Below, in pieces: positions 1,025 through 38,642 of a stretch of DNA of 41,271 nucleotides. The translations under genes and the position numbers were made by a program. The notes beneath the pieces are model-generated. The model saw only the letters and a list, made by a program, of their open reading frames with translations, made no database searches and had not been told where the DNA came from. How positions within the stretch are numbered: the stretch's first letter is position 1; each line of letters starts with the position of its first letter. This DNA comes from a virus, in the IMG/VR virus record IMGVR_UViG_3300028809_000034, positions 1 through 41,271 of that record; one strand, written 5' to 3'.

Positions 1025-1285
1025 TCAGGCCGCCTTCGCCAGTTGCCGCAGCTTGGCGCGCGTATGCAGATGCGGCTTGCCGGTGCGTCGATTGATCGAT
1101 GCCGGGATAAAGCGCGGGCGCAACAGAGGCGCCCAGTCGCCAGTTGGATCCCATTTCCCTTGGAACCCGCGGGGCTTGCGATGCATGCGCGTGAAGCCCG
1201 GCGTGCGTGCCTGCTGCGCGATGCGGCGCTCCTCCAGCATTACGGCCCGTGCGTCGCGAGGCGTCAGCGCATTATCTTGAGGCAT
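1025..1285 (-). CDS. Hypothetical basic early protein
   Basis: An 86-residue basic protein without a recognised domain. Its N-terminus (MPQDNALTPRDARAV) is encoded by a copy of the dispersed repeat at 1257-1268. The same LTPRD peptide recurs at the start of the gene at 3913 and inside the gene at 8917. The gene lies in the cro operon, three bases from each neighbour, and is probably expressed early. Confidence 0.6.
   Translation of the reverse strand: MPQDNALTPRDARAVMLEERRIAQQARTPGFTRMHRKPRGFQGKWDPTGDWAPLLRPRFIPASINRRTGKPHLHTRAKLRQLAKAA
1257..1268 (+). repeat. Dispersed repeat, TCA form
   Basis: Exact CGAGGCGTCAGC. It lies in the first codons of the minus-strand gene 1025-1285, which reads the complementary strand as LTPRD. 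Confidence 0.8.
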
Positions 1286-1288
1286 GAC

Positions 1289-1711
1289 CTATTTCCCCTC
1301 TATCGACTTCAATTGGGCTTCTGCGGCTGCATGCAGGGCAATCAGCGACACGATGGATATCTGCGTGCTCACCACGAACGGGTGTGGCTCGCCGGTCACG
1401 GCTTTGGCGAAGGAGACGCGCTCAGCGCTCTCCCGCAACGCAGCTTTGAGGTTGGCGATTGTCGGGGCTGGCGTCGGCCTCAGGGCCGCGGACACCGCTT
1501 CCAGGAAGCGGGCATCTGCAAACTTGACCTGCCACGTCACCGTCGACGCCATGCCTTCCTTGGCGTCCGGTTCGTTGGCGAGCCATCGAAGGCGCTCGGC
1601 AATCGCCCACAGCTCAGTGCGAGCATTCGGCGGCATAGGCACCGGTTCGGCGCTCACCTCTCCGCCACATGTCACGGCCGTCTCGTCGCGCGGCGAAGCG
1701 GACTCGCTCAT
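1289..1711 (-). CDS. Hypothetical early protein
   Basis: A 140-residue, mostly helical protein with no recognised domain. The N-terminal MSESASPRDETAV is encoded by a degenerate copy of the dispersed repeat. The same extended stretch (ASPRDE-AVTDN-like) opens the gene at 5164. Its ATG overlaps the stop of the membrane peptide at 1708-1806 as ATGA. A short aromatic- and valine-rich C-terminal helix is present, but I do not call it a membrane segment. Confidence 0.6.
   Translation of the reverse strand: MSESASPRDETAVTCGGEVSAEPVPMPPNARTELWAIAERLRWLANEPDAKEGMASTVTWQVKFADARFLEAVSAALRPTPAPTIANLKAALRESAERVSFAKAVTGEPHPFVVSTQISIVSLIALHAAAEAQLKSIEGK
1689..1699 (+). repeat. Dispersed repeat, degenerate
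   Basis: CGCGGCGAAGC, one mismatch to the AA form. It encodes ASPRD at residues 5-9 of the gene 1289-1711 on the minus strand. Confidence 0.55.
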
Positions 1712-1806
1712 CGCATCATCTCCGCGAAGTTGAGCGCCATCCGATACAAGGCAGCAGAGGCCAAGCCGGAGAAGGTCATCATCAGAACGAAGGTGAGGAT
1801 GGTCAT
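1708..1806 (-). CDS. Tiny single-pass membrane peptide
   Basis: A 32-residue ORF whose first two thirds is one hydrophobic segment (starting MTILTFVLMM). The start overlaps the cro stop as ATGA, and the stop overlaps the next start as ATGA. Both junctions are perfectly coupled, which argues that it is a real gene despite its size. It would insert in the inner membrane. Function is unknown; small early membrane peptides of temperate phages often act in superinfection exclusion, but nothing here proves that. Confidence 0.6.
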   Translation of the reverse strand: MTILTFVLMMTFSGLASAALYRMALNFAEMMR

Positions 1807-2045
1807 GCGCGGCTCCCAGCCCGTTTCGGGTTCATGAGCTGCGCCTGCTCTTCACGAGCCTTCTCGGCTGCCGCCTGGGCTGCCGCGACCTTGAACTGGC
1901 TCATGCGCCACTCGAGCGTCGCGCCCTTGCCTGGCAGCTTGTTAGCCTTGCGCCAGTTGTACAGGGTGCGGATCGGGATGCCGGAAAAGCGGTGCAACCG
2001 GTCGATGCCGACGTTGTCGATTGTTTCTGTTACGGCAATGCTCAT
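1803..2045 (-). CDS. Cro-like HTH regulator
   Basis: An 80-residue protein divergent from the repressor, in the position of cro. Residues 15-40 (IDRLHRFSGIPIRTLYNWRK and following) look like a Cro/YdaS-type helix-turn-helix that reads start site DNA. The C-terminal half is an Ala- and Glu-rich helix that may dimerise. It has no clear Shine-Dalgarno. The promoter at 2054-2082 would start transcription within a few bases of the ATG, so the mRNA is probably leaderless. Expected role: repress the repressor promoter and steer toward lytic growth. Confidence 0.75.
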   Translation of the reverse strand: MSIAVTETIDNVGIDRLHRFSGIPIRTLYNWRKANKLPGKGATLEWRMSQFKVAAAQAAAEKAREEQAQLMNPKRAGSRA

Positions 2046-2053
2046 GACGAGCG

Positions 2054-2082
2054 ATCATGCCGGATTGGCATTGCCACGTCAA
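2054..2082 (-). promoter_or_regulatory. Leftward early promoter for cro (PR-like)
   Basis: On the minus strand, -35 TTGACG (2082-2077), a 17-bp spacer and -10 CATGAT (2059-2054). The operator at 2058-2070 fills the spacer and touches the -10, so bound repressor would block polymerase. The predicted start is near 2047, two bases before the cro ATG at 2045. Confidence 0.65.
2058..2070. promoter_or_regulatory. Repressor operator, right cluster, site 1
   Basis: TGCC-GGATT-GGCA, one of four TGCC-N5-GGCA palindromes that flank the repressor gene two and two. Confidence 0.65.
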
Positions 2083-2089
2083 GATGTCT

Positions 2090-2102
2090 AGCCAATCTGG
2101 CA
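2090..2102. promoter_or_regulatory. Repressor operator, right cluster, site 2
   Basis: AGCC-AATCT-GGCA, one base off the consensus half-site. Together with its flank GGCAATA it matches the site at 2891. It overlaps the region where the repressor's own promoter would lie, which suggests autoregulation. Confidence 0.55.
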
Positions 2103-2137
2103 ATATTGAGAATCCGTCCGCCGCGGCATCATGGGGC

Positions 2138-2797
2138 ATGGATGCAAAATGGCTTTCGGATCAACTCGCTAGCTCGGGCAAGAGTCAGGCTGACCTCGCG
2201 CGATACCTTGGGGTATTGCCCACCGCTGTTAACAAGATGGTGAAGGGGCGCCGCAAAATTCTGGCTAGCGAGGCCGAGAAGATGCGAAGGTTTTTTGCAG
2301 GCGGAGCGGAAACACCGGATCAGAAAAGCCGCACACCGAGTGCGCCAAACATTGACGCAGGGATAAACCCGCCCCTACGCTCTACTATGCCGCGGAATGT
2401 TCCGATTCTCGGAACGGTCTCCGGCGGTGGGGGCTTCTTTCAAATGAACGGCGATCCGATTGACTGGGCGCGCCGTCCGCCCAGGTTAGAAGGCCGCGCT
2501 GATGTTTTTGGCGCATACGTAGAGGACCTATCAATGGTCCCGCGATACGAACCGGGGGAACTCGTTTTCATAGAGCGAGCCCGCCCGCCAGCTCCAGGCG
2601 ATCACGTTATCGTGGAAATCGTGGAGGGGCCGACCTCTCGGGATGAGCGCAAGGCGCTGATCAAGAAGTTGGTTGCCGTCACGCCATCCTCGGTCCGACT
2701 GGAGCAGTACAACCCGCCCAAAGTGCTTGAGTATCAGCGTAAGCAGGTACTTCACATGTATCGGGTCATGCCGCTCGCCGATTTGTTAGGTACCTAA
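2138..2797 (+). CDS. S24-family phage repressor (CI analogue)
   Basis: A 219-residue repressor that keeps the prophage silent. Residues 15-41 form the helix-turn-helix (SQADLARYLGVLPTAVNKM). Residues 88-219 are a LexA/CI-type S24 peptidase domain with Ser132 (DLSMVP) and a candidate Lys176 (ALIKKL) as the catalytic pair. The start at 2138 is preferred over 2057 because the upstream in-frame ATG lies inside the operator. The usual self-cleavage dipeptide Ala-Gly or Cys-Gly is not seen; the region reads ILGTVSGGGG (90-99), so DNA-damage-induced cleavage may be altered or lost. The gene is flanked on both sides by matching operators. Confidence 0.9.
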   Translation: MDAKWLSDQLASSGKSQADLARYLGVLPTAVNKMVKGRRKILASEAEKMRRFFAGGAETPDQKSRTPSAPNIDAGINPPLRSTMPRNVPILGTVSGGGGFFQMNGDPIDWARRPPRLEGRADVFGAYVEDLSMVPRYEPGELVFIERARPPAPGDHVIVEIVEGPTSRDERKALIKKLVAVTPSSVRLEQYNPPKVLEYQRKQVLHMYRVMPLADLLGT

Positions 2798-2801: not shown

Positions 2802-2866
2802 CTCGAACCTCTGATGTAGGCGCCACAACACCCGCTAAGGTGGTGGATATTTTTTGTTCCTCGTGA

Positions 2867-2936: not shown

Positions 2937-3275
2937 ATGCCGAGGGATTTCGCAAACGAGCAGGAACTGGCTTCGCCTCGCTCGATCGAAGGCCGTTCTC
3001 TTCCTGAAACGAAGCCGGTTGAAACCTACGATCAATTGAACGCCGCCCTTGAAGGGCAGGTGTTGGTTGATATCGGCCAGGTCGGCCCCCTCTCCCGCAA
3101 GGCGCTGGATCGCGCGGTGCGCGCCGGGAAGCTCACCAAGTGGCGCGGCAAGTGGTTTCCGGTTGCGGGCGCTTCTTTTGGCATCGGCCCGGATAAGAAC
3201 TGCTGGAGCACGCCGGAAGTCGCCAAGCAGTTCGCCGACATGAAGCGCGGGATCGAAGCCCGCGACGCTGCCTAA
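2937..3275 (+). CDS. Hypothetical early protein, first of rightward operon
   Basis: A 112-residue protein with a strong purine-rich ribosome site (GGGAGACGGGA) just before the ATG; the earlier in-frame start at 2874 falls inside the promoter. Residues 12-18 (LASPRSI) come from the dispersed repeat. The C-terminal 80 residues (from YDQLNAALEGQ, with GKLTKWRGKWFP) form the conserved-looking part. As the first gene under the PL-like promoter it is a candidate antiterminator or host-takeover factor, but no family is recognised. Confidence 0.65.
   Translation: MPRDFANEQELASPRSIEGRSLPETKPVETYDQLNAALEGQVLVDIGQVGPLSRKALDRAVRAGKLTKWRGKWFPVAGASFGIGPDKNCWSTPEVAKQFADMKRGIEARDAA
2970..2980 (-). repeat. 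Dispersed repeat, AA form
   Basis: Exact GCTTCGCCTCG (complement of the core) inside the N-terminal coding region of the gene at 2937. It continues CTCGATCGAAGGCC, close to the flank of the copy at 5485. Confidence 0.8.
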
Positions 3276-3302: not shown

Positions 3303-3608
3303 ATGGCGTATCGTGGTCGCAACTTTAGCCAAGGCACTCGCGGCAACCTGAGCGCGACCCAGTGCGCGCCTCAACCGCGTCGATTTCCAGCACCGCATGA
3401 CCCCGCCGATAAGGCCCGATTGATCGCCGCGTCCTCCGAACTCTGGCGTCTTACTCTCGCCAAGGGCCTGACTCTTCCCGAGCGCGCAGCCGCGTCCGCT
3501 GAATATCGCGAAGTCGAGGGGATGTTGGCCGCTCTCGCCAAGGCAACACAGCCGGCCGCGTCGCGAGGCGAAGCCACTCCTAATTCCACCGCAGAGCTGG
3601 GGGCGTAG
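3303..3608 (+). CDS. Hypothetical early protein
   Basis: A 101-residue protein preceded by a good Shine-Dalgarno (GACGGGAGTGAGAG). The central part (residues 32-80) is predicted helical, with repeated Ala and Glu. The C-terminal tail ASRGEATPNS is encoded by a repeat copy at 3564-3574, so the tail may be acquired. No domain is recognised. Confidence 0.6.
   Translation: MAYRGRNFSQGTRGNLSATQCAPQPRRFPAPHDPADKARLIAASSELWRLTLAKGLTLPERAAASAEYREVEGMLAALAKATQPAASRGEATPNSTAELGA
3564..3574 (+). repeat. Dispersed repeat, AA form
   Basis: Exact CGAGGCGAAGC followed by CACTCCTAAT; encodes RGEA near the C-terminus of the gene at 3303. The flank resembles that of the copy at 8889. Confidence 0.8.
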
Positions 3609-3610
3609 AT

Positions 3611-3912: not shown

Positions 3913-4245
3913 ATGTACACGCACGCCACTCAACTGCGGAACGAGGATAACGCGCTGACGCCTCGCGACGCGACCATTGCCATCGAGCAGGCCACAGGAT
4001 TTCTGGTCGTCTCGTGGTGGCGCGACAAGACCTCGGTCATCCCTCCCTACAAGGGCGGCTTCGACTATGCGCACTTCAAGACGCTGCGTGAGGCAGAGGA
4101 CGCCTACAACGACTACGAGAACAACGAGTATGTGAGGGCCGAGCCCGTCGCGCTCATGGCCTGCAAGCAAGGTGTGCCATTCGCCACCCTGCATGCGGCC
4201 TCGCCTGCCCTCCTGAGCACCCTGATTGCGGGAGACGCAGCATGA
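3913..4245 (+). CDS. Hypothetical early protein
   Basis: A 110-residue protein whose N-terminal NALTPRDA comes from a TCA-form repeat. Residues 30-65 are rich in aromatic and charged residues (FLVVSWWRDKTSVIPP, AYNDYENNEY). Its TGA overlaps the next ATG as ATGA. No family is recognised. Confidence 0.6.
   Translation: MYTHATQLRNEDNALTPRDATIAIEQATGFLVVSWWRDKTSVIPPYKGGFDYAHFKTLREAEDAYNDYENNEYVRAEPVALMACKQGVPFATLHAASPALLSTLIAGDAA
3954..3965 (-). repeat. Dispersed repeat, TCA form
   Basis: Exact GCTGACGCCTCG (complement). It encodes LTPR within the first 20 codons of the gene at 3913 and is preceded by GATAACGC, as in the copy at 1257 read on its gene strand. Confidence 0.8.
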
Positions 4246-4382: not shown

Positions 4383-5164
4383 GCGCCCGCGACGAAGCCG
4401 CTGGTGGGGTGGGAAACGTGGATCGCTGCAAGCTCCAGCCGGCGCTGGCACATGCTGCCGACGCCGCTTGCTCCTACTTCATGACGGATGGCTTCTGCGA
4501 TCCCCGGCAATGCCAGAGCTGCAAGTGCTGGGATCGTGCGAGCGCCGTCATGGATGCGACTGGGCTGTCCGCTCGTGCTGTTGGCTTCCTTTTCCAGCAT
4601 CGCCAGCAGATCGAGAAGTCCGCCGAGGAGCAGGAAGCCAAGACTTGGGACGGCACGCCCTGGTGGTCGAAGCCTGAAGCGCTCGCACGAGACGAGGCCA
4701 ACCGCCGCTCTCCCTCCCCTCGCGATCAAGCCTCCAGTGCGACAAGTGAGACGGCAGAGCAATTGCTAAATGCCCCAGATGGTTTCCCGTGTCGCGTAAA
4801 CTCCGATGGGTCAGTCAGCATAGACGAAAAATTCGTGCGTGATCTGGCCGCTAAATCCGATGTGGAAATGGAACGCGTGAAAGCTTGCGAACACATCGCG
4901 GCCGGAGACGAGGGATGGGAGCGTTTGCGCGATCTCTGCCCCAGCACCTTTGCTGTGGCGGCCTTGCGTGATGCCTCCAGTGCGATGCTGGGGGCGTTGG
5001 AGCCGTTCGCAAGGATAGCCGATTGGTACGACGACACGTCCCGATCTGATGATCACACCATCATGCAGTTCCTTGGCCGCGAGTCTTTCAGGCTAACGGT
5101 CGGCATGTGTCGAGCTGCGCGGATCGCCCGCTCTGCAGGCATAGAGACTGAGGAGAATGGGTGA
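4379..5164 (+). CDS. Hypothetical early protein, cysteine-rich N-terminus
   Basis: A 261-residue protein. The N-terminal 100 residues carry clustered cysteines (CDPRQCQSCKCWD around 40-52) that could bind metal. The C-terminal half, after a Ser-rich linker containing SPRDQ (about residues 112-125), is helical. It ends with TGATG overlap onto the next gene. The linker peptide resembles those encoded by the dispersed repeat, which suggests two originally separate ORFs joined there. No family is recognised. Confidence 0.6.
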   Translation: MSARDEAAGGVGNVDRCKLQPALAHAADAACSYFMTDGFCDPRQCQSCKCWDRASAVMDATGLSARAVGFLFQHRQQIEKSAEEQEAKTWDGTPWWSKPEALARDEANRRSPSPRDQASSATSETAEQLLNAPDGFPCRVNSDGSVSIDEKFVRDLAAKSDVEMERVKACEHIAAGDEGWERLRDLCPSTFAVAALRDASSAMLGALEPFARIADWYDDTSRSDDHTIMQFLGRESFRLTVGMCRAARIARSAGIETEENG

Positions 5165-5532
5165 TGGGATTCGCTTCGCCTCGCGACGAGAGGGCCGTGA
5201 CTGATAACACGGACGTTATTCGGATCATGGAAGCGGGCATGAGTGTGCCGGCGCCGTCCGGTCAGTGGGATGGCTACCAGCCATACAACCGGTTAGCCAA
5301 GCTAGCTGTCGCGGCGCTCGAAGCCGCTGGCTTCCTCATCGTGCCCAAAGAGCCGACCGACGCCATGATCGAGGCTGGCAACAAGCCTTTTGACGAGCCT
5401 TTCGTCGGCGGCCGACTGACCGACCCCTGCCGCGTCTGGGAAGCCATGATCAATGCTGCCCCGATGGGACGGCCGTCAATCGAGCGAGGCGAAGCACGCC
5501 GCCCATCCCTCTCTAAGGGAGAGAGGGGATGA
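5164..5532 (+). CDS. Hypothetical early protein bracketed by repeats
   Basis: A 122-residue protein. The core (residues 15-100) contains PTDAMIEAGNKPF, a motif I have often seen in small phage proteins of unknown role. Both ends come from repeat copies: FASPRDERAVTDN at the start and RGEARRPSLSKGERG at the end. An alternative GTG start after the repeat peptide would give a protein beginning TDNTDV. Start at 5164 is chosen for its TGATG coupling to the gene before. Confidence 0.6.
   Translation: MGFASPRDERAVTDNTDVIRIMEAGMSVPAPSGQWDGYQPYNRLAKLAVAALEAAGFLIVPKEPTDAMIEAGNKPFDEPFVGGRLTDPCRVWEAMINAAPMGRPSIERGEARRPSLSKGERG
5173..5183 (-). repeat. Dispersed repeat, AA form
   Basis: Exact GCTTCGCCTCG at the very start of the gene at 5164. 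It extends CGACGAGAGGGCCGTGAC, shared with the copies at 1689 and 9051. Confidence 0.8.
5485..5495 (+). repeat. Dispersed repeat, AA form
   Basis: Exact CGAGGCGAAGC at the 3' end of the gene at 5164, followed by ACGCC and a hairpin, the same arrangement as at 9466. Confidence 0.8.
5507..5527 (+). promoter_or_regulatory. Hairpin holding the ribosome site of the next gene
   Basis: An 8-bp stem CCCTCTCT with AGAGAGGG, loop AAGGG. The 3' arm is the purine-rich Shine-Dalgarno for the ATG at 5529. The site would be closed unless ribosomes finishing the upstream gene (stop at 5532) open it. Confidence 0.5.
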
Positions 5533-5864: not shown

Positions 5865-5968
5865 CCCTCCACCTAGACCGTCTCTACGCCTCTGGGGCTT
5901 TGTATGAGTGTAGGAGACGGAAACGCGCGCGCTTCGCCGCGCTCTATCGATGGTTGTTCAATTTCTGA
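5861..5968 (+). CDS. Tiny basic ORF
   Basis: A 35-residue ORF, strongly basic in the middle (CRRRKRARFAALYR), coupled by ATGA to the preceding gene. The C-terminal third is encoded by a degenerate repeat copy. Support is only the overlap and open frame. Confidence 0.4.
   Translation: MTLHLDRLYASGALYECRRRKRARFAALYRWLFNF
5931..5941 (-). repeat. Dispersed repeat, degenerate
   Basis: GCTTCGCCGCG, one mismatch, followed by CTCTATCGATGG as in the copy at 2970. It lies between the tiny ORF and the gene at 5985. Confidence 0.55.
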
Positions 5969-5984
5969 TGCAGGAGTGATTGTA

Positions 5985-6374
5985 ATGGATATCGACAGCA
6001 TTCAGAAGCGTCTCGACGCTCTCGCCCAAGGCATGGCTGCCAAGGCTGTGCGCGAACCGTCAGCATCGTTCTCGCTAGACAGCCACAAGGGGCCGTCGGT
6101 CAACGTATCGCAGAAGAGCAAGAACGACAGAAGCTGGCGCGACTACGAGTGGTTTAAGGGTACGCCGGAGCAGGCGCTTGCAGAAGCCGAAGCCTATGTG
6201 GCCGCGCTGCCGAGCCCGGAGCAGGCTCGCATGCAGGCGTTCATGGAATCTCTCGGCGCCACCATCGAGCTCGGCAAGAACGCCGACATAGACGTCGACT
6301 TCGTGAACCCGCTGGTCGTGCTGATGAAGCGTCTCTCCAAGAACGCCCTCACCCACGCGGGACAGACCTCTTAA
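5985..6374 (+). CDS. Hypothetical protein upstream of ERF
   Basis: A 129-residue protein with a clear ribosome site (CAGGAG, 9 bases before ATG); the longer frame from 5904 would begin with repeat-derived sequence and lacks such a site. The protein is acidic and helical, with an N-terminal heptad-like helix (IDSIQKRLDALAQG). It directly precedes the recombination module and may serve it, but no domain is recognised. Confidence 0.6.
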   Translation: MDIDSIQKRLDALAQGMAAKAVREPSASFSLDSHKGPSVNVSQKSKNDRSWRDYEWFKGTPEQALAEAEAYVAALPSPEQARMQAFMESLGATIELGKNADIDVDFVNPLVVLMKRLSKNALTHAGQTS

Positions 6375-6376
6375 CC

Positions 6377-6387
6377 CGAGGCGAAGC
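6377..6387 (+). repeat. Dispersed repeat, AA form
   Basis: Exact CGAGGCGAAGC in the gap right after the stop at 6374 and before the ERF ribosome site. Confidence 0.8.
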
Positions 6388-6420
6388 GAATCCAACCCCA
6401 ACCCTCCACAGGAGATGACA

Positions 6421-7329
6421 GTGCCCGATACCATGCTGACCACAGAATCTCGGCCGCCTGAGAACCACTCCAAGGAAGTGGCGAAGCTGGCGGCGGCGCT
6501 CGCCATGGCCCAGAAGAATTTCGCCCCGATCCCCAAGGATCGCGAGGTGAAGGTGCAGTCCGATCGCGGCAGTTACACCTTCAAGTACGCCACCCTGGAC
6601 GCCATCCGCTCGGCCACCATGCCGGCCCTTGCCGAGCAGACGCTGGCCATCGTGCAGGGCATGATCGAATACGGCAACGGCTACGCGGTAGAAACCAAGC
6701 TGATCCATTCTTCAGGCGAATGGATCCGCAATGTGACGCCGATGTTCGTCAGCGGGCGCGTGAAGGACGGCCGGCAGTATCCCCCGACTAATCAGGAACT
6801 GGGCTCGGCGCAGAGCTACGCGCGCCGCTATGGCATTTCCGCCCTGCTCTGCATTACCGCCGACGAAGACGACGACGGCAACACCGCCGACGGCAATCAT
6901 ATCGAGGGCAGCTCGCGCGCGCCCTACACGCCCCACCGACCCGGCCCTGCAGGCTCGGCAAGCGGCGGCACCGACTTCCGGCCTCCCGGCCCACGCCGCA
7001 CTGGCTGGGCAAAGGAAGCCGAGAACGACGGCACTCTCGACACGACACGCAACAAGGGCGAGATGCCCGGGAAGGCGCCGGCCGCCAACGGCAAGAAGTC
7101 TGCCGCCGAGAAGGCCAAGAGCTGGACCGACACAGCCATCGCGACGATCAAGCTTCCTGGCCAGCATGTCGCCTCGCTCGACAAGTGGTGGAAGGACCAG
7201 AAGGCGGTACCGTCTGGCGCCAAGTTTTCTCCCCTTGGCTGGCTGGAGGAGGCGGCGCCGGATGAATACGAGCGCCTGCAGGCCGCATTCGATGAAGTCC
7301 GCAGCAATGCCCAGCAGGTGGCAGCATGA
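6421..7329 (+). CDS. erf: ERF-family single-strand annealing protein
   Basis: A recombinase of the ERF family that anneals complementary single strands and helps phage circularisation and recombination. The N-terminal half carries the family pattern: YTFKYATLDAIRSATMPAL, then GSAQSYARRYGISALLCI and an acidic DEDDDGN stretch. The C-terminal part is a Pro/Ala linker and a basic end. The GTG at 6421 is favoured because AGGAG sits six bases upstream; the ATG at 6415 would touch the Shine-Dalgarno. It is coupled to the next gene (ATGA). Its substrate may include the many dispersed repeats nearby (inference). Confidence 0.9.
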   Translation: MPDTMLTTESRPPENHSKEVAKLAAALAMAQKNFAPIPKDREVKVQSDRGSYTFKYATLDAIRSATMPALAEQTLAIVQGMIEYGNGYAVETKLIHSSGEWIRNVTPMFVSGRVKDGRQYPPTNQELGSAQSYARRYGISALLCITADEDDDGNTADGNHIEGSSRAPYTPHRPGPAGSASGGTDFRPPGPRRTGWAKEAENDGTLDTTRNKGEMPGKAPAANGKKSAAEKAKSWTDTAIATIKLPGQHVASLDKWWKDQKAVPSGAKFSPLGWLEEAAPDEYERLQAAFDEVRSNAQQVAA

Positions 7330-7949: not shown

Positions 7950-8350
7950 ACGACGGCCGGCGCGTCTACTCCCTCCGGTCAGAAGGTGACCGCCCGTGGG
8001 CCCAGTCGGCAGTCGCCCGGGCTCCGCTGGGCTTCGTCGTCATCGTCCAGCCCAAGACGCGCAGCCTCGACCAGAACAGCCTCATGCACGACCTGCTGAC
8101 GGATATCTCGCGGCAGTTCAAGTGGCACGGCAAGCGGCTATCTCCAGACGTCTGGAAACGCCTTTGCATGGCCTCCTGGCTGCGTGAGCGCGGCGGGACG
8201 CCCGAGCTTATTCCAGCCCTCGACGGCAACGGCTTCGACGTCATCTACGAGCGCACATCCAAGCTGAACGTCCAAGAGTGCTCGGAATTCATGGAATGGA
8301 TTATCGCCTTCGGACGGCAGAACGACGTCCAGTTCAGGAAGATCCCATGA
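7946..8350 (+). CDS. ninB: NinB-family recombination protein
   Basis: A 134-residue protein of the NinB (Orf) family, which in lambda replaces RecFOR-type mediators by binding single-stranded DNA and SSB. Family marks are TRSLDQNSLMHDLLTDIS, a central WKRLCMASWLRE and the C-terminal LNVQECSEFMEWIIAFG. The start is the ATGA overlap with the gene before; the longer frame from 7634 is a shadow. It pairs with ERF as a Red-like module. Confidence 0.88.
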   Translation: MNDGRRVYSLRSEGDRPWAQSAVARAPLGFVVIVQPKTRSLDQNSLMHDLLTDISRQFKWHGKRLSPDVWKRLCMASWLRERGGTPELIPALDGNGFDVIYERTSKLNVQECSEFMEWIIAFGRQNDVQFRKIP

Positions 8351-8709
8351 CCGACGTCGGCACGACCAAGCGCGGCTCGATGGGCGTCATGCGGCGCCTC
8401 CGAATCTGGGAGGAGCACAAGGGCGTCTGCATCCTGTGCGGGCTCAAGATCGATGGCATCCGCGAGAAATGGATCATTGAGCACAAGCGAGCCTTGGTGC
8501 TGGGCGGCGAGGACACGGACGAGAATTGCGGCCCAGCGCACGAAGACTGCAGGCGAGCCAAGGACAAGAAGGACGTCCACGACGGCGCCAAGGCGAAGCG
8601 GCGCAAGGCCAAGATGCTGGGCATTCGCAAACGTTCCACCTTCCCATGCAGCCGGGACGGAGCTTGGAAGGCGAAAATAGGCGGCGGATTTGTAAGGAGA
8701 GACGGATGA
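8347..8709 (+). CDS. HNH endonuclease
   Basis: A 120-residue HNH nuclease. It has CILCG at about residue 29, the metal-binding EHKRALVLGGEDTDEN segment and the second cysteine/histidine group AHEDCRRAK. It sits right after NinB, coupled by ATGA, so it may be a recombination or DNA-repair nuclease rather than a selfish homing enzyme. A basic C-terminal tail follows the domain. Confidence 0.8.
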   Translation: MTDVGTTKRGSMGVMRRLRIWEEHKGVCILCGLKIDGIREKWIIEHKRALVLGGEDTDENCGPAHEDCRRAKDKKDVHDGAKAKRRKAKMLGIRKRSTFPCSRDGAWKAKIGGGFVRRDG

Positions 8710-8924
8710 GGAACCAATTCGGCGGCGACTGCTACCGCTGTGGGCTGTGGGTCCCGCCCAGCACCGGATATTTCGAGCGCAACAAGGGCGGTTGGCGCGT
8801 CCAACACTGCTACCGCACGCACAACGGCGGCATCACCTGCGAGATGGCGAAGGCTGCCGCAGCCAAGAAAGCACAGGCCTCAAATCAGCGAGGCGAAGCC
8901 ACTAATGGAGACCTCTATGAGTGA
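8706..8924 (+). CDS. Small zinc-finger-like protein
   Basis: A 72-residue protein with CYRCG at residues 9-13 and later His and Cys (HC, TCEM) that could complete a zinc site. The tail NQRGEATNG is encoded by a repeat copy. A good ribosome site (AAGGAG) precedes it and ATGA couples it to the HNH gene. Function is unknown. Confidence 0.6.
   Translation: MRNQFGGDCYRCGLWVPPSTGYFERNKGGWRVQHCYRTHNGGITCEMAKAAAAKKAQASNQRGEATNGDLYE
8889..8899 (+). repeat. Dispersed repeat, AA form
   Basis: Exact CGAGGCGAAGC, encoding RGEA near the C-terminus of the gene at 8706. It is followed by CACTAAT like the copy at 3564. Confidence 0.8.
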
Positions 8925-9513
8925 TGCAGTACGACATGCCCGCTGGCTGGTTGATACTCTCGGCTCGATCCCAAATCACCAGTACAACGCCGTTGAAAGG
9001 CACGCGATGCCCGTCGCCCGCGCCCTCCTAGCAGCAGTAGAGGGGAGCGCGCTGACGCCTCGGGACGAGAGGGAGGTGACTGATAACGGGCTGCTGGATG
9101 CGTTGCGCAACATTCGCCGATGGATGTTGGATCTACCAATCCCTACCGAGGGCGCGACTCATCAAGTCATGCAGATGGATTCTGTCATCGCCGAATTGGA
9201 GGGAGCCGCCTGGCAACCGATTGAGACAGCGCCCTACGGCAAGCCGGTCTTGGCATGGTTGTTCCTTCCCAAGAATCCACAAGCAAGTGGCTGTGTCATT
9301 GCCACTCGCTGTTACGTCGAGAGGGACGACCCGCCAAGCTACCCAGAGCACGAGCGCCAGACGCAAGGGTGCTGGTGGGCGAACGGGCGGTACTATTCAG
9401 CGCGCCACGTCACGCGCTGGAAGCCATTGCCAACACCTCCCAAGGATGACCGGTCCTCAGCGCATCGAGGCGAAGCACGCCCCTCCCTATCCGGGAGAGA
9501 GGGAGAGAAGTGA
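8917..9513 (+). CDS. DUF551-containing composite protein
   Basis: A 198-residue protein. The first 45 residues are one helical unit; SALTPRDEREVTDN (about 47-60) is repeat-derived. Residues 95-180 match DUF551, a common phage domain of unknown role, from WQPIETAPYGKPVLAWLF to TRWKPLPTPP. The tail AHRGEARPSLSGREGEK is again repeat-derived. GTG within the internal repeat (GAGGGAGGTGACT) could start a shorter DUF551 protein. This looks like two ORFs fused across a repeat. Confidence 0.7.
   Translation: MSDAVRHARWLVDTLGSIPNHQYNAVERHAMPVARALLAAVEGSALTPRDEREVTDNGLLDALRNIRRWMLDLPIPTEGATHQVMQMDSVIAELEGAAWQPIETAPYGKPVLAWLFLPKNPQASGCVIATRCYVERDDPPSYPEHERQTQGCWWANGRYYSARHVTRWKPLPTPPKDDRSSAHRGEARPSLSGREGEK
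9051..9062 (-). repeat. Dispersed repeat, TCA form
   Basis: Exact GCTGACGCCTCG in the middle of the gene at 8917. The flank GGACGAGAGGGAGGTGAC matches that of 5173. Confidence 0.8.
9466..9476 (+). repeat. Dispersed repeat, AA form, first of an inverted pair
   Basis: Exact CGAGGCGAAGC at the end of the gene at 8917. It is followed by a CTCCC/GGGAG hairpin (9483-9497) as at 5485. Confidence 0.8.
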
Positions 9514-9516
9514 TTC

Positions 9517-9528
9517 GCTGACGCCTCG
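9517..9528 (-). repeat. Dispersed repeat, TCA form, second of an inverted pair
   Basis: Exact GCTGACGCCTCG, opposite in direction to 9466, with CACGTG at 9540-9545. Both lie in the 57-base gap before the gene at 9571. Confidence 0.8.
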
Positions 9529-9570
9529 CTCAATCAATGCACGTGACAGACACAGAAAGGACCTCTCGCA

Positions 9571-9912
9571 ATGTCTAAGCGGATGACTTGGCGCTGCTTT
9601 CACTGCGGCGACGTGTTCAGGAGCCCCAAGCATGCGGCTTCGCACTTCGGCATCGACGAACTCCAGATGCCCGGCTGTGTGGCGGTGTTGCGTCACGGCG
9701 AAAGCCATCTTCTGGACCGCATTCGGGACCTTGAGCAGCAGCTTGAGCGCTACCGGAACGAAGACAGCGACCTGATGCGCTACTACCAATCGAAGCAGGC
9801 AGACCATGCTCAGGCGCTGATCCGAGAGGAGGAGCGCGGGTATGCGAAAGGGCTTCGGGATGGTCGAATATACCCATCCGATGACGCTTCAGTAGAAGAA
9901 CGGGCCGCGTGA
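9571..9912 (+). CDS. Zinc-finger and coiled-coil early protein
   Basis: A 113-residue protein. The N-terminus (CFHCGDVFRSPKHAASHFG, from residue 9) looks like a C2H2-type finger and is a pattern I know from phage proteins of unknown role. Residues 48-75 (LDRIRDLEQQLERYRNE) form a likely coiled coil. AAAGGA lies about a dozen bases before ATG. The stop overlaps the next start as TGATG. Confidence 0.65.
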   Translation: MSKRMTWRCFHCGDVFRSPKHAASHFGIDELQMPGCVAVLRHGESHLLDRIRDLEQQLERYRNEDSDLMRYYQSKQADHAQALIREEERGYAKGLRDGRIYPSDDASVEERAA

Positions 9913-10190
9913 TGCGAGGCGAAGCGCACCCCATGACCAAGCCACTGACAGAGAGGCTGCGGACGAAAGCCAAGGCCTGCCGGATGTGCGGCCTGGTGAA
10001 GGACGCCGATCTATTCGACGACACCGCCAAGGCGCTGGAGGAAGCGCGAATTGCCCTCCAGGGGGTCCACGACGTGACCATTGATACGGTCGCCTATGGA
10101 ATTGCCCGCGAGTGGCTCACCGCCCACCCGGAGGCACGTGAATCTCAACCCGAGGCGAAGCGCGTTCCTTCCTCTCCTCGCTCTAACTGA
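9912..10190 (+). CDS. Hypothetical early protein
   Basis: A 92-residue protein. The first seven residues (MRGEAHP) are repeat-derived; a second ATG at 9933 (MTKPLTERL) may be the ancestral start. It has a CRMCG pair and a helical middle. The C-terminal PEAKRVPSSPRSN is encoded by another repeat copy. No family is recognised. Confidence 0.55.
   Translation: MRGEAHPMTKPLTERLRTKAKACRMCGLVKDADLFDDTAKALEEARIALQGVHDVTIDTVAYGIAREWLTAHPEARESQPEAKRVPSSPRSN
9915..9925 (+). repeat. Dispersed repeat, AA form
   Basis: Exact CGAGGCGAAGC, followed by GCACCCCATGACCAAGCC, nearly the same start context as the minus-strand gene at 37316. Confidence 0.8.
10151..10161 (+). repeat. Dispersed repeat, AA form, with CACGTG
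   Basis: Exact core preceded by CACGTG (10135-10140) and ten bases. It sits between the gene at 9912 and the excisionase. Confidence 0.8.
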
Positions 10191-10206: not shown

Positions 10207-10413
10207 ATGGCAACCGACGCCCAGCTCCTTAAGCGCTTCGGCATGCTCACCGAGGAGGACGTGGCGAAGCTCCTCGGGATCACCGTCAAGACGCTGAAGA
10301 ACCGGCCGAGGGCGGATATCCCCGAGTTCGTGAAGGCCGGGCGGCGGCGCCTGTTCAAGGAGGAGGCCGTCCGGGACTACCTTGAAGCCCACACCGTCAG
10401 GCCAGCCGCTTAA
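10207..10413 (+). CDS. xis: Excisionase-like HTH protein
   Basis: A 68-residue winged-helix protein of the HTH_17/excisionase type. Residues 13-30 (MLTEEDVAKLLGITVKTL) form the recognition unit and residues 40-60 the wing and last helix. It is convergent with the integrase and overlaps its 3' end by 17 bases, the normal position of a recombination directionality factor. The start has a purine-rich site (GAGAAAGGG). Confidence 0.8.
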   Translation: MATDAQLLKRFGMLTEEDVAKLLGITVKTLKNRPRADIPEFVKAGRRRLFKEEAVRDYLEAHTVRPAA

Positions 10414-11428
10414 GCGTCTCATGCACGCTGGCGGGATCGATGCGGGCATAGTGCTTAGCGAGCACCTTCCAATTGCGGTGCCCGGAAATCAGCGCCACCT
10501 GTGGAATGGGTACCCCGGCCTCGAGTAGGCGGCTAAGGGAATAGGCTCGCAGGTCATGGATATGCAGATCAGGGATCTTGCACCGGGCCGCCACATCCCA
10601 GAAGGCGGACGAAATGCTCGCCCGTTTGTACGGGAACGGCCGATCCATATAGCGCGGCCGATCGGCGATCAGCTTGTAGGTATCCACGCCCTTGAAGTTG
10701 ATCAGCGGGACCTCCTGGTCGTTCTTCTCCTTCTCCAGGATATCGGGATGCTTGCGGCCCCGGATGATGACCGAGCGGCGAGATTCGATCAGGTCGGCCC
10801 ATTCGATGCCCACCAGCTCGCCCACCCGCAGGGGGAGCACAGACAGCACCTCGACGATGGCATCCAGATCGATAAAGGCCCGTTGCTGGTTCTGTGCGTA
10901 GGCGCGGATGATCAGCAATTCCTCCTCGGTTGGGCGCCTGGTGCGCGCGCCGGACTTGCCGGCGATCTTGTTCCGCTTGGCTGCCTCAATGGCCTTCTGC
11001 ACCTCCTCGACCGGGACCGAGACCTTCCAGAGGTCGCGCGCGGTGCGCAGCACCTCCTTGAGGTAGCTCAACCGCGAGGAGATGCCGCCGGGGCTGATTT
11101 TCAGGCCGCGCGCATAAGCCAGAAGCGACTGCTGGGTGATGGTCGTCAACAGTTTTGCGCCGAGGTCCCGGCGAAGGATATTGAGCTCCAAGGCCTTGTT
11201 CTGGCCCCAGCGCTTCACTGGCCACATTTCCTTTTCGTATCGAGTGATGACCTGAGCCAGTGTGCCCGTCATCTTGCCCGGGACGACGCCGCCAAGGTCA
11301 GCCTCGCGCTCCTTGGCCGTCGCCCATGCCTTGGCGTCCACGAGCCTGTCGAAGGTCTTGGTTGCCTTCAGGTCGACGCGGCGGATAATCGCCTGCCAGC
11401 GTCCCTTGCGCTTTCGAAACGTCGCCAC
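10397..11428 (-). CDS. int: Tyrosine-recombinase integrase
   Basis: A 343-residue site-specific recombinase. It has an N-terminal arm-binding part, a core-binding domain (about 50-150) and a catalytic domain (about 165-343). Catalytic residues visible: Arg201 (LPLRVGEL), probable Lys226, His291 and Arg294 (HDLR), His317 (SGHRNW) and nucleophile Tyr327 (HYARI). The start is GTG with GGGGGAG upstream. It inserts the phage at attB by acting on the repeated sites just upstream of its own start (11452-11689). Length is typical. Confidence 0.95.
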   Translation of the reverse strand: MATFRKRKGRWQAIIRRVDLKATKTFDRLVDAKAWATAKEREADLGGVVPGKMTGTLAQVITRYEKEMWPVKRWGQNKALELNILRRDLGAKLLTTITQQSLLAYARGLKISPGGISSRLSYLKEVLRTARDLWKVSVPVEEVQKAIEAAKRNKIAGKSGARTRRPTEEELLIIRAYAQNQQRAFIDLDAIVEVLSVLPLRVGELVGIEWADLIESRRSVIIRGRKHPDILEKEKNDQEVPLINFKGVDTYKLIADRPRYMDRPFPYKRASISSAFWDVAARCKIPDLHIHDLRAYSLSRLLEAGVPIPQVALISGHRNWKVLAKHYARIDPASVHETLKRLA

Positions 11429-11699: not shown

Positions 11700-11978
11700 A
11701 TGATCGACAATCCCATGGTGGAACGCGTGGCACGGGCGATCTGCGACGCGGACCCGCTGGCGCCTGATCCCGACGCGCCGATCTACATCGGCACCAAGCC
11801 GGCCAAGGCGTGGGAGGCGCGCGCTCAGATGGCCCAAGCGGCGATTAGAGCGATGAAGGACCCGCCTGACGCGGCCCTGGACGCAATGAACCCCTCCGGG
11901 CGCTACGCCAGCACGGTGATCCCCGAGGCCTGGAATGACGCTATCGACGCAATGCTATCTCCGCCATCTGGCACGTGA
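11700..11978 (+). CDS. Hypothetical protein next to attP
   Basis: A 92-residue protein with AGAAGGGA before the ATG; the longer frame from 11649 would start inside the arm repeat. The pattern (VERVARAICDADPL near the start, ARAQMAQAAIRAMKDP in the middle) is one I know from many small phage proteins without assigned function. It may be expressed in lysogens because it lies beyond int, on the opposite strand. Confidence 0.65.
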   Translation: MIDNPMVERVARAICDADPLAPDPDAPIYIGTKPAKAWEARAQMAQAAIRAMKDPPDAALDAMNPSGRYASTVIPEAWNDAIDAMLSPPSGT

Positions 11979-11987
11979 CTATCAATC

Positions 11988-11999
11988 CGAGGCGTCAGC
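11988..11999 (+). repeat. Dispersed repeat, TCA form, with CACGTG
   Basis: Exact CGAGGCGTCAGC preceded by CACGTG (11972-11977) and ten bases. It fills the gap between the convergent genes ending at 11978 and 12005. Confidence 0.8.
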
Positions 12000-12004
12000 G
12001 CGCC

Positions 12005-12235
12005 CTAAGGCCCCGTCTTCTCCGGGAACAGAGAGACCGAGACGCGCTTTCCGCATTCCTTGCAGGTGATCCGCAGCATTACATCCCTGGTCTTGGTCTC
12101 TGGGCCGAAGCGCTCGACCAGCGGTTCCATCTCGATCCTGAGCGACCGCTTGCAGTGCGCGCAGTAGCCGCCGATATGCATCCCTGTTCTTCGGGTGTCC
12201 TCTAATGAGGGCCAGTCTTTGCGGGGTGGTTGCAT
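12005..12235 (-). CDS. Zinc-ribbon protein
   Basis: A 76-residue protein with CAHC at residues 25-28 and CKEC at 58-61, a four-cysteine zinc ribbon. No ribosome site is evident. A -10-like TACACT ends seven bases before the ATG, so the message may be leaderless. It lies alone, divergent from the methyltransferase. Function is unknown. Confidence 0.6.
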   Translation of the reverse strand: MQPPRKDWPSLEDTRRTGMHIGGYCAHCKRSLRIEMEPLVERFGPETKTRDVMLRITCKECGKRVSVSLFPEKTGP

Positions 12236-14361: not shown

Positions 14362-14685
14362 TCACCGTCCCGGCTTGTCTGCCTTGCGATCGAGCTTTTC
14401 CTCGATGCGTACCAAGGCTGCCTTGATTTCCGTGATGTTGGTGGCGTTCGTCAGACTGACGTTCTGGATCATTGCCTTCTGGTCGTTGAGCCGATCCATG
14501 AAGACTGTCTCAATCTTCTTGTCGGCTTCCTTGAACTCCTTCTCTAAGCGCAAGGCATTAGCTTCGTTGCCCTCCACCTTGTGTGTGATGCTGGACCATG
14601 CCAGCGCACCGCTAATCAGCAAGCCAGCAAACGTAAGTGCGTTGTCTAGCCTGATGGATGGATCGAAGTGCACGCGAGAGGTCAC
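14362..14685 (-). CDS. Membrane-anchored coiled-coil protein (spanin-like or holin accessory)
   Basis: A 107-residue protein with one N-terminal membrane segment (LTFAGLLISGALAWSSI, about 17-33) followed by a long charged coiled coil. That is the layout of an inner-membrane spanin, and it lies in the lysis cassette. No outer-membrane partner with a lipobox is seen embedded in it, so the spanin label is tentative. GTG start overlaps the tail-spike stop as GTGA. Confidence 0.6.
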   Translation of the reverse strand: MTSRVHFDPSIRLDNALTFAGLLISGALAWSSITHKVEGNEANALRLEKEFKEADKKIETVFMDRLNDQKAMIQNVSLTNATNITEIKAALVRIEEKLDRKADKPGR

Positions 14686-34556: not shown

Positions 34557-34565
34557 GGGGATTAT

Positions 34566-34790
34566 TCACTTCGTATCGGGTTGAGGGGGCCGTGAATTCC
34601 AAGCGGCAATAGCTTCTTCCTCCGTGCCGAAGTCGGAGAACGGCTGCATTGCACAAAGCTCGCCGCGGATGGGGTCGAGGTTGTTGCAAGCCGCTCGCCA
34701 GTTGAGCGTCTTCGGGTCGGGGCGTCGGTATTTCTGGAACACAGTCGCTGGCCCACCGCAGTATGGGCACGGCAATAGCTTGTCCTTCAT
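34566..34790 (-). CDS. Lar-type restriction alleviation protein
   Basis: A 74-residue protein with CPYCGG at residues 8-13, two further cysteines (35 and 46) and the characteristic ending GTEEEAIAAWNSRP. This is the pattern of the Lar/restriction-alleviation group, whose founder (Rac prophage Lar) stimulates methylation and lowers host type I restriction. Whether this member does so is not known. ATGA-coupled. Confidence 0.78.
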   Translation of the reverse strand: MKDKLLPCPYCGGPATVFQKYRRPDPKTLNWRAACNNLDPIRGELCAMQPFSDFGTEEEAIAAWNSRPPQPDTK

Positions 34791-35005: not shown

Positions 35006-35186
35006 TCACTCCTCCCCTTGTTGGGGGTTGGAAGTGGCTCGGCTCGATGGCCTCGCACCTGTTCCTCTCCTGCAACGCAGTCTTCCGCCCCGTTAAGTGG
35101 CCGAGCCCCGCACACATCGGACAATTCATTCCGGGCGCGAGCGTGTGCAGGCCGCAGCGAGAACAAACGAAACGACGCCGGCTCAT
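34998..35186 (-). CDS. Small zinc-ribbon protein
   Basis: A 62-residue protein with CSRCG at 8-12 and CPMC at 22-25, a rubredoxin-like zinc knuckle pair. ATGA-coupled to the previous gene. Function is unknown. Confidence 0.6.
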   Translation of the reverse strand: MSRRRFVCSRCGLHTLAPGMNCPMCAGLGHLTGRKTALQERNRCEAIEPSHFQPPTRGGVSE

Positions 35187-35422
35187 GACCCCACCTTCGG
35201 CGGGATGACGGTCAGGTTAAGCCACGTCAGGTTGTCGTTGGACTTGATGCGGCCCTCGATTTTGGCCTCACAGAGCTCCGTCGAGCCGCTGGCACGATGC
35301 GCCCGCCATCCCTCCACTAGCGCCTTCAGGAAGGGCTCCGTGAGCACGATCTTGCCTGACCAATCCGGCGCGGCTTGGTTGCGCTTTTCCTTGGTTTCGA
35401 AGAGCCGACCGACGGTGTTCAT
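35183..35422 (-). CDS. Hypothetical early protein
   Basis: A 79-residue basic protein with GKIVLTEPFLKALVEGWRAH followed by a beta-like C-terminus (NLTWLNLTVIPP). It is coupled at both ends by ATGA. No family is recognised. Confidence 0.6.
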   Translation of the reverse strand: MNTVGRLFETKEKRNQAAPDWSGKIVLTEPFLKALVEGWRAHRASGSTELCEAKIEGRIKSNDNLTWLNLTVIPPKVGS

Positions 35423-36847: not shown

Positions 36848-37176
36848 GACAACCGCCACTCGATGTCTGGATAGAGGGCCTTTGCGAGAGCCCATTTGAT
36901 CTTGAAAGCCGGCGTCAGGACGCCTTTTCGATCCTCGACGACGCGGAAGGACTTGCCGTCGTCGCTATGCTCGACGTACTGCCAGTCGCCCACGTAGCGG
37001 CAGATTTTCCGGCCCTGGACACACAGGTCGAACCGAGGCTGCCGGCGGATGCCGCTGATTTTGCCGGCCCGCTCGAGCAACTGCAGCTCGGCATCGCGCA
37101 TAGCTTCCGCCTTGCTCGCGAACCTGATGCCGTCGACCACAACAGGGGTGTTGCGGTATTTGCGGATTCCCCTCAC
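36844..37176 (-). CDS. DUF1064 nuclease-like protein
   Basis: A 110-residue protein of the DUF1064 family, related to small phage endonucleases. The start RKYRNTPVVVDGIRFASKAE and the later FDLCVQGRKICRYVGDWQYV with VVEDRKGVLTPAFKIKWALA are typical, including the nuclease-like D-x(n)-ExK layout (E in VVEDRKG). GTG start, GTGA overlap with the previous gene. It may process phage recombination or replication intermediates. Confidence 0.82.
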   Translation of the reverse strand: MRGIRKYRNTPVVVDGIRFASKAEAMRDAELQLLERAGKISGIRRQPRFDLCVQGRKICRYVGDWQYVEHSDDGKSFRVVEDRKGVLTPAFKIKWALAKALYPDIEWRLS

Positions 37177-37316
37177 TTCCGCCTCCCCGCCGCCAGGGCG
37201 GCCGTGCGGGCTGCTTTTAGGCGTGCTGCCAAGGCATGTGGAACCGGGCGCCGCCGATCGATCAGCGCCTGTCTCCTATCCTCTAGGATCTGGACTGCTC
37301 TTTCTGGTTTGGTCAT
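37173..37316 (-). CDS. Small basic protein
   Basis: A 47-residue basic helical protein (ERAVQILEDRRQALIDRRRP, ALAARLKAARTAALAAGRRK). A repeat copy sits just before the ATG, and the start context CACCCATGACCAAACC resembles that of the gene at 9912. The stop is coupled to DUF1064 (GTGA). Confidence 0.6.
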   Translation of the reverse strand: MTKPERAVQILEDRRQALIDRRRPVPHALAARLKAARTAALAAGRRK

Positions 37317-37320
37317 GGGT

Positions 37321-37331
37321 GCTTCGCCTCG
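37321..37331 (-). repeat. Dispersed repeat, AA form, with CACGTG
   Basis: Exact core on the minus strand, ending four bases before the ATG of 37316. CACGTG is at 37342-37347, exactly ten bases from the core. Confidence 0.8.
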
Positions 37332-37349
37332 GATTGAGAGTCACGTGCT

Positions 37350-37796
37350 TCACAGTCCAAGCAGCCGCTTCGCTACCCAGAGCTTGGGTTCGGCAATTGC
37401 GACATAGGCCCAGAAGTCGAGCAGATGGACGACGGCGGCGATCGCACAAACCACCGAAGCGACCGCTAGCCCGATGAGCCCGAAGATGTACGGATCGTCG
37501 CTTTCCTTTGGGCGCGGTGTGTGGCTGGCCCAGTATTGAGACCACGCCGCGGCGACGGGCCTGTACGCTCGGAAGAGGCGCCTCCAAGCAAATGCACCTG
37601 CGCCTGCGAGCGCCGCAAAGACGATACCCATCAGGATCGTCTTCACGCCGTCGAGACGTACGACCAGAAGCGCCGAGTCGATCACTTCCGGCCCGTACTT
37701 GTCGGCGAGTGTAGCGAGCTTCGCCACCATCGCGTCCGTGGCACTCACAATCTTGTCGAGCGCGGTCGCGGCGGCGTTATCAAGCTTATCAGCCAT
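37350..37796 (-). CDS. Two-TM membrane protein
   Basis: A 148-residue protein. The soluble N-terminal helix is followed by two clear membrane segments (TILMGIVFAALAGAGAFAW and IFGLIGLAVASVVCAIAAVV). AGGAG lies eight bases before ATG. An early inner-membrane protein of this kind could be a superinfection-exclusion factor, but no family is recognised. Confidence 0.65.
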   Translation of the reverse strand: MADKLDNAAATALDKIVSATDAMVAKLATLADKYGPEVIDSALLVVRLDGVKTILMGIVFAALAGAGAFAWRRLFRAYRPVAAAWSQYWASHTPRPKESDDPYIFGLIGLAVASVVCAIAAVVHLLDFWAYVAIAEPKLWVAKRLLGL

Positions 37797-37814
37797 TGTA
37801 AAAGCTCCTGCGTC

Positions 37815-38642
37815 TTAGGCTTCACTTGCGTGGATTGAGCGAGGCAAAGCGGATTCCAACCTCTCTCGTGGACGGCGGAGGAAGGGTAAAATGTCCATTC
37901 CATCGGCATTTGGAGTGGCTTCGCCTCGCGTATCGGGAGTTGGTGCATTTTCTGCACATACTGAGTGGACGACCGGCGGCGCGCGCTTGCAGTCTGGTGC
38001 GTGCTCATCCTGCAGGCACTCCGGGCAGAGAATGCCGCCGCCGCGCGTCTCTGAATGGGTATCGTGCGGCCGCAGGGGTGCCGTTGTGAGTCCGCAGCCA
38101 AAAGCGTCCGCCTTAGCCCCCAAGGCGCCCGCGGGCTCGCCGCACGATTCTTGTATGTCACGTGCCTCGCAATCCGAGGCGTCAGCACGGACATGAGCTG
38201 TACGATTTTCTCGTACAACTGAATTTGTGTCAGCCCCTACCCCGCCATTGGGGACTGACGATGCAGAGGGGCCGCCAAGCTCCTCTAACTGCGGTGAGAG
38301 GGGCGACTGGGCCTGCGGGGCCGCAACCTGTTCAGGTGTCCCATTTCGCTCGCGTGGGACAAGACGCTGCAATTTGCTCTTGCTGATGCCGTTCTGCGCG
38401 GCGACGCTCCGCAGGCTCGCGCCAGGGATGGAAAGCTGGGCACGATAGAGCTCGACGTCGGCGTCAAGCTCCGCGTCGGTCTTCCGGCGGCGCTCGGCCA
38501 GCACCTTACGGAGCGCCTTGGCGTTGTAGCCCGCGCTTTTGACCTCGGTGTAGACATCCTTGATGTCGCCGCCGATGGCTTTCCGCTCGTCTTCCAGATT
38601 GTCGAGACGATCAGCAAATGACTTCAGGCGCTTATCGCTCAT
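37815..38642 (-). CDS. GapR/DUF2312 domain fused to a repeat-derived tail
   Basis: A 275-residue protein. Residues 1-70 match GapR (DUF2312), the alphaproteobacterial nucleoid protein that binds overtwisted AT-rich DNA and stimulates topoisomerases: SFADRLDNLEDERKAIGGDI then KDVYTEVKSAGYNAKALRKV. Residues 74-98 (ASLRSVAAQNGISKSKLQRL) look like an added HTH. The C-terminal 150 residues carry cysteine groups (CPECLQDEHAPDC at 206-218) and three segments encoded by dispersed repeats (about 151-162, 236-246, 263-271). The fusion is unusual; normal GapR is about 90 residues. Confidence 0.8.
   Translation of the reverse strand: MSDKRLKSFADRLDNLEDERKAIGGDIKDVYTEVKSAGYNAKALRKVLAERRRKTDAELDADVELYRAQLSIPGASLRSVAAQNGISKSKLQRLVPRERNGTPEQVAAPQAQSPLSPQLEELGGPSASSVPNGGVGADTNSVVRENRTAHVRADASDCEARDIQESCGEPAGALGAKADAFGCGLTTAPLRPHDTHSETRGGGILCPECLQDEHAPDCKRAPPVVHSVCAENAPTPDTRGEATPNADGMDILPFLRRPRERLESALPRSIHASEA
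37840..37850 (+). repeat. Dispersed repeat, degenerate
   Basis: CGAGGCAAAGC, one mismatch, preceded by TGGATTGAG. It encodes the last residues (ALPRSIHASEA) of the GapR fusion. Confidence 0.6.
37918..37928 (-). repeat. Dispersed repeat, AA form
   Basis: Exact GCTTCGCCTCG inside the GapR fusion gene, read there as DTRGEATPN. Confidence 0.8.
38175..38186 (+). repeat. Dispersed repeat, TCA form, with CACGTG
   Basis: Exact CGAGGCGTCAGC with CACGTG at 38159-38164, ten bases before. Inside the GapR fusion gene it encodes VRADASDCEARD on the minus strand. Confidence 0.8.

Follow-up and report, generated by a model that had tools for sequence, protein, structure and literature searches.

Lambdoid phages carry short shared boundary or linker sequences at module joints, where homology starts or stops, and these sequences differ by joint. 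Rickettsia palindromic elements are repeats that are translated in frame within proteins. The present study describes a dispersed repeat of approximately 40 bp, with a core of 11-12 nucleotides (nt), in a 41,271-nt stretch of viral DNA (IMG/VR record IMGVR_UViG_3300028809_000034, positions 1 to 41,271), the whole of which is referred to as the window. The start-associated sequence of cluster K mycobacteriophages (SAS; ESAS in its extended form) is a short repeat with 11-19 copies that occurs in the non-structural half of the genome only and is nearly missing from the host; the 13-bp SAS consensus, GGGATAGGAGCCC, lies 3-7 bp from the start codon in practically one orientation and includes the Shine-Dalgarno sequence (PMC3203893). 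T4-type phages have cassettes of an early promoter and a stem-loop (PeSLs) in regions that shuffle small early genes (PMC4503421).

The window element resembles SAS and ESAS in that it is limited to non-structural genes and lies ahead of genes from different families. However, its consensus differs from GGGATAGGAGCCC, about half of its copies are inverted, and the core either overlaps the start or, in the leaders that we call S-type, lies 54 nt ahead of it and is distinct from the Shine-Dalgarno sequence. Similar to PeSLs, it is a repeated junction element amid dense shuffling of small early genes; in contrast to them, its copies have neither a promoter-like site (1-12.4 kb) nor a stable single-copy hairpin. 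A short sequence shared at joints is also reminiscent of lambdoid linkers, but a single family covers about 20 joints here. As in Rickettsia, the repeat is read in frame within proteins, but it is singly non-palindromic, phage-borne, and mostly found at gene ends or junctions. We concluded that the element is real and lineage-limited and that its role recalls start-associated sequences and PeSLs, although it is a member of neither. Regarding function, we judge the chances to be about even that it is a phage-borne gene-junction element, which combines a portable start or joint module with homology for Erf-type exchange.

An earlier note on this DNA reported 11 copies of one core and six of another, both far above chance. 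These counts were reproduced exactly. CGAGGCGAAGC is present at 2970-, 3564+, 5173-, 5485+, 6377+, 8889+, 9466+, 9915+, 10151+, 37321-, and 37918-, and CGAGGCGTCAGC at 1257+, 3954-, 9051-, 9517-, 11988+, and 38175+ (signs indicate the strand), while the numbers expected from first-order resampling of the window were 0.11 and 0.005, respectively. The reversed-pattern control had no match in the window. Exact cores were absent from 12.3-33.3 kb, in agreement with the claim that the structural block lacks them. The note mentioned three additional one-mismatch copies, whereas ten exist. A profile hidden Markov model (threshold, >9 bits) retained three of these (1689, 5931, and 37840); the other seven (8589, 10260, 28990, 29491, 32251, 32856, and 40601) have no flanks and occur at approximately the chance rate (100 shuffles: mean 3, largest 7). 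The resampling, shuffles, and reversed-pattern control rule out chance or composition as the origin of the repeat, and its enrichment in the window is real.

An alignment of the copies revealed that the 11-12-bp unit originally described is the conserved centre of the ~40-bp element. The layout consists of a variable 18-20-nt arm, whose first letters are often CACGTG or CACGG, followed by the core CGAGGCG(A or TC)AGC and then a tail that frequently reads GAATCC. A third core variant with the same arms, CGATACGAAGT, adds the copy at 34558-34598 and a weak match at 12239, and the core consensus is CGA(GG/TA)CG(A/TC)AG(C/T). The profile matched the window 22 times, namely, 21 copies and the weak match at 12239, on the edge of the early region. 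Apart from the latter, the interval from 12.3 to 34.5 kb was free of matches (P about 4e-8 under a uniform distribution).

The window represents a temperate phage of the P22-like kind and encodes portal and terminase proteins, a CI-type repressor with an S24 domain, an Erf annealing protein, and an integrase. The terminase shares 91% identity with its counterpart in a prophage, R, in a Reyranella metagenome-assembled genome (L286; contig C48, about 540-580 kb). This similarity is the sole basis on which the soil bacterium Reyranella is considered to be the probable host. R has 19 profile matches, which are confined to 542.7-558.6 kb, outside its structural genes. Further matches were detected in the viral contigs G055 (seven), G048 (four), and L122 (three), those in L122 and some in G055 being weaker; G055 and G048 carry the same element, and L122 probably does so as well. 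The host genome of R contains 36 exact AAGC cores and five TCAGC cores, of which six and three, respectively, are no more than about 12 kb away from the prophage early region. No cluster of TCAGC cores was found outside the prophage in 65 Reyranella genomes, and only one of 385 alphaproteobacterial genomes matched the extended pattern, inside R itself. A host repeat was thus rejected as far as tested. Annotated phages and plasmids had only 17-18-nt chance-level matches to the patterns tried, and a known phage or plasmid repeat was also rejected. Scans of sequence collections with 14-17-mers mostly returned unrelated chance matches. Structural relatives (terminase identity, 68-89%), many of which are fragments without early regions, included no second element-bearing genome. 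This rare distribution outside a few phages indicates a phage-borne family rather than a host repeat.

Nearly every copy lies between two accessory or early genes (gene calls, some hand-corrected), and the reported placement at gene starts, ends, and junctions in both directions was confirmed against these calls. Backward copies, which run against transcription (GCTTCGCCTCG), are found at gene starts (MGFASPRDERAVTDN, MSESASPRDETAV, MPQDNALTPRDARAV, and others) and are often translated as an N-terminal ASPRD or LTPRD tail. Forward copies, with CGAGGCGAAGC along transcription, are found at gene ends and encode SRGEA, ERGEA, or DTRGEA. The N- and C-terminal tails listed in the note (ASPRD, LTPRD, and RGEA) are, thus, present. 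An S-type leader comprises the core, a spacer, AGGAG or AAGGA, and AATG. In the D-type joint (...CGCGACGAGAGGGCCGTGAC), the copies end in GTGAC, of which GTG is a possible start codon. The copies in the window are as follows.

1240-1277, plus strand: CGAGGCGTCAGC at 1257; N-terminal MPQDNALTPRDARAVM of the minus-strand gene 1025-1285
1670-1710, plus strand: CGCGGCGAAGC at 1689; N-terminal MSESASPRDETAVT of the minus-strand gene 1289-1711
2958-2998, minus strand: N-terminal ELASPRSIEGR of gene 2937-3275; the counterpart in R is degraded
3548-3586, plus strand: C-terminal SRGEATPNS of gene 3303-3608
3945-3974, minus strand: CGAGGCGTCAGC; N-terminal ALTPRD of gene 3913-4245; start of homology to R
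5160-5208, minus strand: D-type with GTGACTGATAAC; N-terminal MGFASPRDERAVTDN of gene 5164-5532; 5180-5208 identical to R 558771-558799
5467-5500, plus strand: C-terminal SIERGEARR of gene 5164-5532, past the end of the PHROG match
5919-5985, minus strand: copy with S-type leader; 54 nt from the core 5' end to the ATG at 5985
6360-6396, plus strand: stop of gene 5985-6374, before the Erf gene; kept in R, homology ends at 6387
8870-8904, plus strand: C-terminal NQRGEATNG of gene 8706-8924
9042-9087, minus strand: D-type, internal to gene 8920-9513 (EGSALTPRDEREVTDNG)
9446-9487, plus strand: C-terminal AHRGEARPS of gene 8920-9513
9503-9571, minus strand: copy with S-type leader; 54 nt from the core 5' end to the ATG at 9571
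9898-9936, plus strand: between the stop at 9912 and the downstream start ATGACCAAG at 9933
10132-10173, plus strand: C-terminal part of gene 9933-10190 (PEAK frame), 5' of 10207-10413, which encodes an excisionase-like protein
11968-12008, plus strand: CGAGGCGTCAGC; stop codon of gene 11700-11978
34558-34598, minus strand: core variant CGATACGAAGT, between minus-strand genes
37317-37348, minus strand: after the minus-strand gene 37350-37796, directly before the small open reading frame 37173-37316
37796-37862, plus strand: CGAGGCAAAGC with S-type leader; minus-strand gene 37350-37796, core 5' end 54 nt before the ATG
37907-37947, minus strand: C-terminal DTRGEATPNADG of the minus-strand gene 37815-38642; kept in R
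38155-38194, plus strand: CGAGGCGTCAGC; inside the called open reading frame 37815-38642

The two orientations occupy different parts of genes. When only copies wholly inside called genes were counted (by hand), 13 of the 17 backward copies were in the first half of the gene and 11 of the 13 forward copies in the second (Fisher p=0.0025). The S-type layout was measured in seven backward copies from three phages, in which the distance from the core to the ATG was 54 nt (six leaders) or 52 nt (one leader). An eighth leader (R 541683), found through its 3' part, aligns with these seven. The proteins encoded behind S-type leaders have no significant mutual similarity, except for the orthologues W5985 and R27108. 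A D-type joint at window 5180-5208 and R 558771-558799 is identical over 29 of 29 bp through GTGACTGATAAC, and precedes different genes in the two phages. In our proposal, a gene flanked by the element would arrive with a working ribosome-binding leader or start, while the ~30-40 bp of near-identity would provide homology with which Erf may swap single small genes between phages. The ASPRD, LTPRD, and RGEA tails would then be by-products of joints that fall inside reading frames, not selected peptides.

The homology between the window and R breaks inside elements at 3952 and 6387. At R 558.7 kb, two half elements appear to have been joined within a single frame (ATPVGEAN-TRDERAVTDN), and the gene that follows element-bearing junctions differs across three phages. 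Homology ended within 30 bp of an element in seven of 21 cases, versus 2.2 expected for random places (p=0.005) and 4.3 for random gene junctions (p=0.08). The Erf protein of the window belongs to the Rad52-like class, whose D3 member roughly equals Red in the efficiency with which it recombines DNA of 78% identity (PMC3945230). Other features to which the argument refers are as follows.

2057-2797, plus strand: CI-type repressor with an S24 peptidase domain and a weak HTH_3 match
6421-7329, plus strand: Erf-family single-strand annealing protein, the candidate recombinase
10397-11428, minus strand: integrase (phrog_1)

A gene that appears HNH-like by eye from its translation (window 8347-8709) closes the conserved Erf block. 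The gene 3' of the HNH-type gene differs among the window, R, and G055, with elements nearby in all three.

Several observations weigh against the combined start and exchange role. Rearrangement affected 16 of 17 junctions with an element and 23 of 27 other early junctions (p=0.63), and the p value of 0.08 given above means that exchange at elements is statistically inseparable from exchange at gene junctions generally. Some orthologous junctions of the window and R retain the element, which is not required of a pure exchange linker. The two orientations and the variable distances of forward copies suit a simple leader poorly. No empty and filled pair of one junction was found at high identity. 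Furthermore, gene starts were taken from a simple caller, the coding counts were tallied by hand, and the frames of related copies are not independent. WQPIETAP-type genes of the window and R have motif-level similarity only, and because of this, we do not claim cassette movement from them. Taken directly, the statistics do no more than suggest exchange at the element. Of the claims in the earlier note, the linker role is, thus, suggested, but not shown: the homology ends inside elements speak for it, while the breakpoint and junction statistics do not separate elements from other junctions.

A purely regulatory role appears to be distinctly less probable, but possible. The element may serve as a signal for translation initiation or in the mRNA leader, or it may be bound by a phage RNA or protein, in the manner of the cluster K SAS, with the shuffling being ordinary mosaicism. 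The usually constant 54-nt spacing to ATG, with a Shine-Dalgarno sequence and AATG ahead of mostly unrelated genes, argues for this role, as do the location of most copies no further than about 60 nt from a start codon, the restriction to non-structural genes, and the retention of the element at several orthologous window and R junctions despite diverged flanks. However, about half of the copies are inverted and located at gene ends, where their distance from the following start covers a wide range (5 to 46 nt in most cases), and no common RNA structure was found for the S-type leaders. No promoter-like site was found at copies in 1-12.4 kb; sites of the consensus type were searched for, and a non-consensus promoter is possible. 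Promoters and terminators at copies did not exceed shuffles, and the one terminator-like site that touches a copy (8877-8894) is antisense. With signals at copies within the shuffle level, a promoter or terminator function is disfavoured. The regulatory tag of the earlier note gains support from the leader with its Shine-Dalgarno sequence and ATG, but not from the opposite-orientation copies at gene ends or the unrelated sequence. Both of its ideas, tag and linker, receive some support and neither is proved.

We speculate, with considerable doubt, that a gene framed at its start by a backward copy and at its end by a forward copy constitutes a mobile cassette for a single gene, the inverted ends of which provide a start (GTG, or Shine-Dalgarno and ATG) and, where the gene stops, an open read-out, and that fused and empty forms also exist.

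A non-autonomous insertion element similar to repetitive extragenic palindromic sequences or miniature inverted-repeat transposable elements, which adds tails at gene ends (cf. Rickettsia palindromic elements), is somewhat more doubtful still. The translated tails extend beyond normal domain ends: the PHROG match of window gene 5164-5532 ends at residue 100-101 of 122, short of the element-derived end, and that of one R gene spans 25-127 of 143, leaving the element-derived ends outside. One homologue lacks the tag, namely, the PAPS-reductase-like protein that begins MSAPVDYVIFASYGNDS in G055 and MSMERASPRDDRAVTPVHVIFASYGNDS in R. R carries this gene (PF01507, phrog_424) between elements (L301:15137-15937), while the G055 homologue (477-1277) has no element-derived N-terminus. 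The domain ends and the untagged homologue count equally in favour of the gene-junction element, in which the tails are additions. Some facing plus and minus pairs fold strongly into long palindromes (R 35040-35200, z=-2.7; G048, z=-4.0). In G048, a 48-codon open reading frame (L307:16462-16608, minus strand) consists almost wholly of one backward and one forward copy, which pair as a stem with about 16 perfect pairs. In contrast, single copies are non-palindromic and form no hairpin (mean z 0.17; control, 0.07), random insertion would not be expected to generate the fixed S-type spacing to ATG, the TCAGC core has no cluster in other Reyranella genomes, and the extended pattern has no match in the 384 other alphaproteobacterial genomes.

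Operators or stoperators for a phage repressor or Cro across early operons are very unlikely, although the phage is temperate, has a CI-type repressor, and carries copies dispersed in its early operons, because the copies occur in both orientations and the immunity region has its own palindromes (TTGGCATTGCCA and neighbours, 2056-2110 and 2863-2907), which are unrelated to the core and include two of the three promoter-like sites in 1-12.4 kb, none being at an element. These palindromes flank the repressor gene, both overlap promoter-like sites, and the stretch at 2863-2907 is identical in the window and R over about 45 bp. They are likely CI/Cro operators.

Peptide tags (N-terminal ASPRD and C-terminal RGEA) selected at the protein level are the least credible explanation: the frame is constant in 26 of 30 coding copies, a descriptive figure because the copies are related to one another, and the peptides DERAV and DTRGEANP recur, but third codon positions coincide on both strands, the fixed spacing to the start codon accounts for the frame bias at starts, and the core occurs in both orientations, and selection on the peptide is unnecessary because the core is also kept in leaders that need no translation. 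In L307, the adjoining minus-strand frames 14464-14742 and 14717-15205 share a repeated C-terminal tail (NADTQVEPSGRKIG / NADTRIEPSGSKIE), which is perhaps another terminal repeat family.

The present results caution that, in phages of this kind, a start or stop call can be an artefact of the repeat, as can what looks like N- or C-terminal conservation. They also bear on the open question of how temperate phages swap individual small early genes and are still able to express them. The element family is a defined, countable joint in at least four phages, with built-in start signals and an Erf protein in the same genome; therefore, the linker and leader ideas are directly testable. If the inverted-end cassettes proposed above exist, the internal copies (8920-9513; G055 10333-11067) would represent fused cassettes and the near-empty 48-codon unit of G048 an empty cassette, and these cassettes would allow a phage to take up any short open reading frame, fuse it, and express it.

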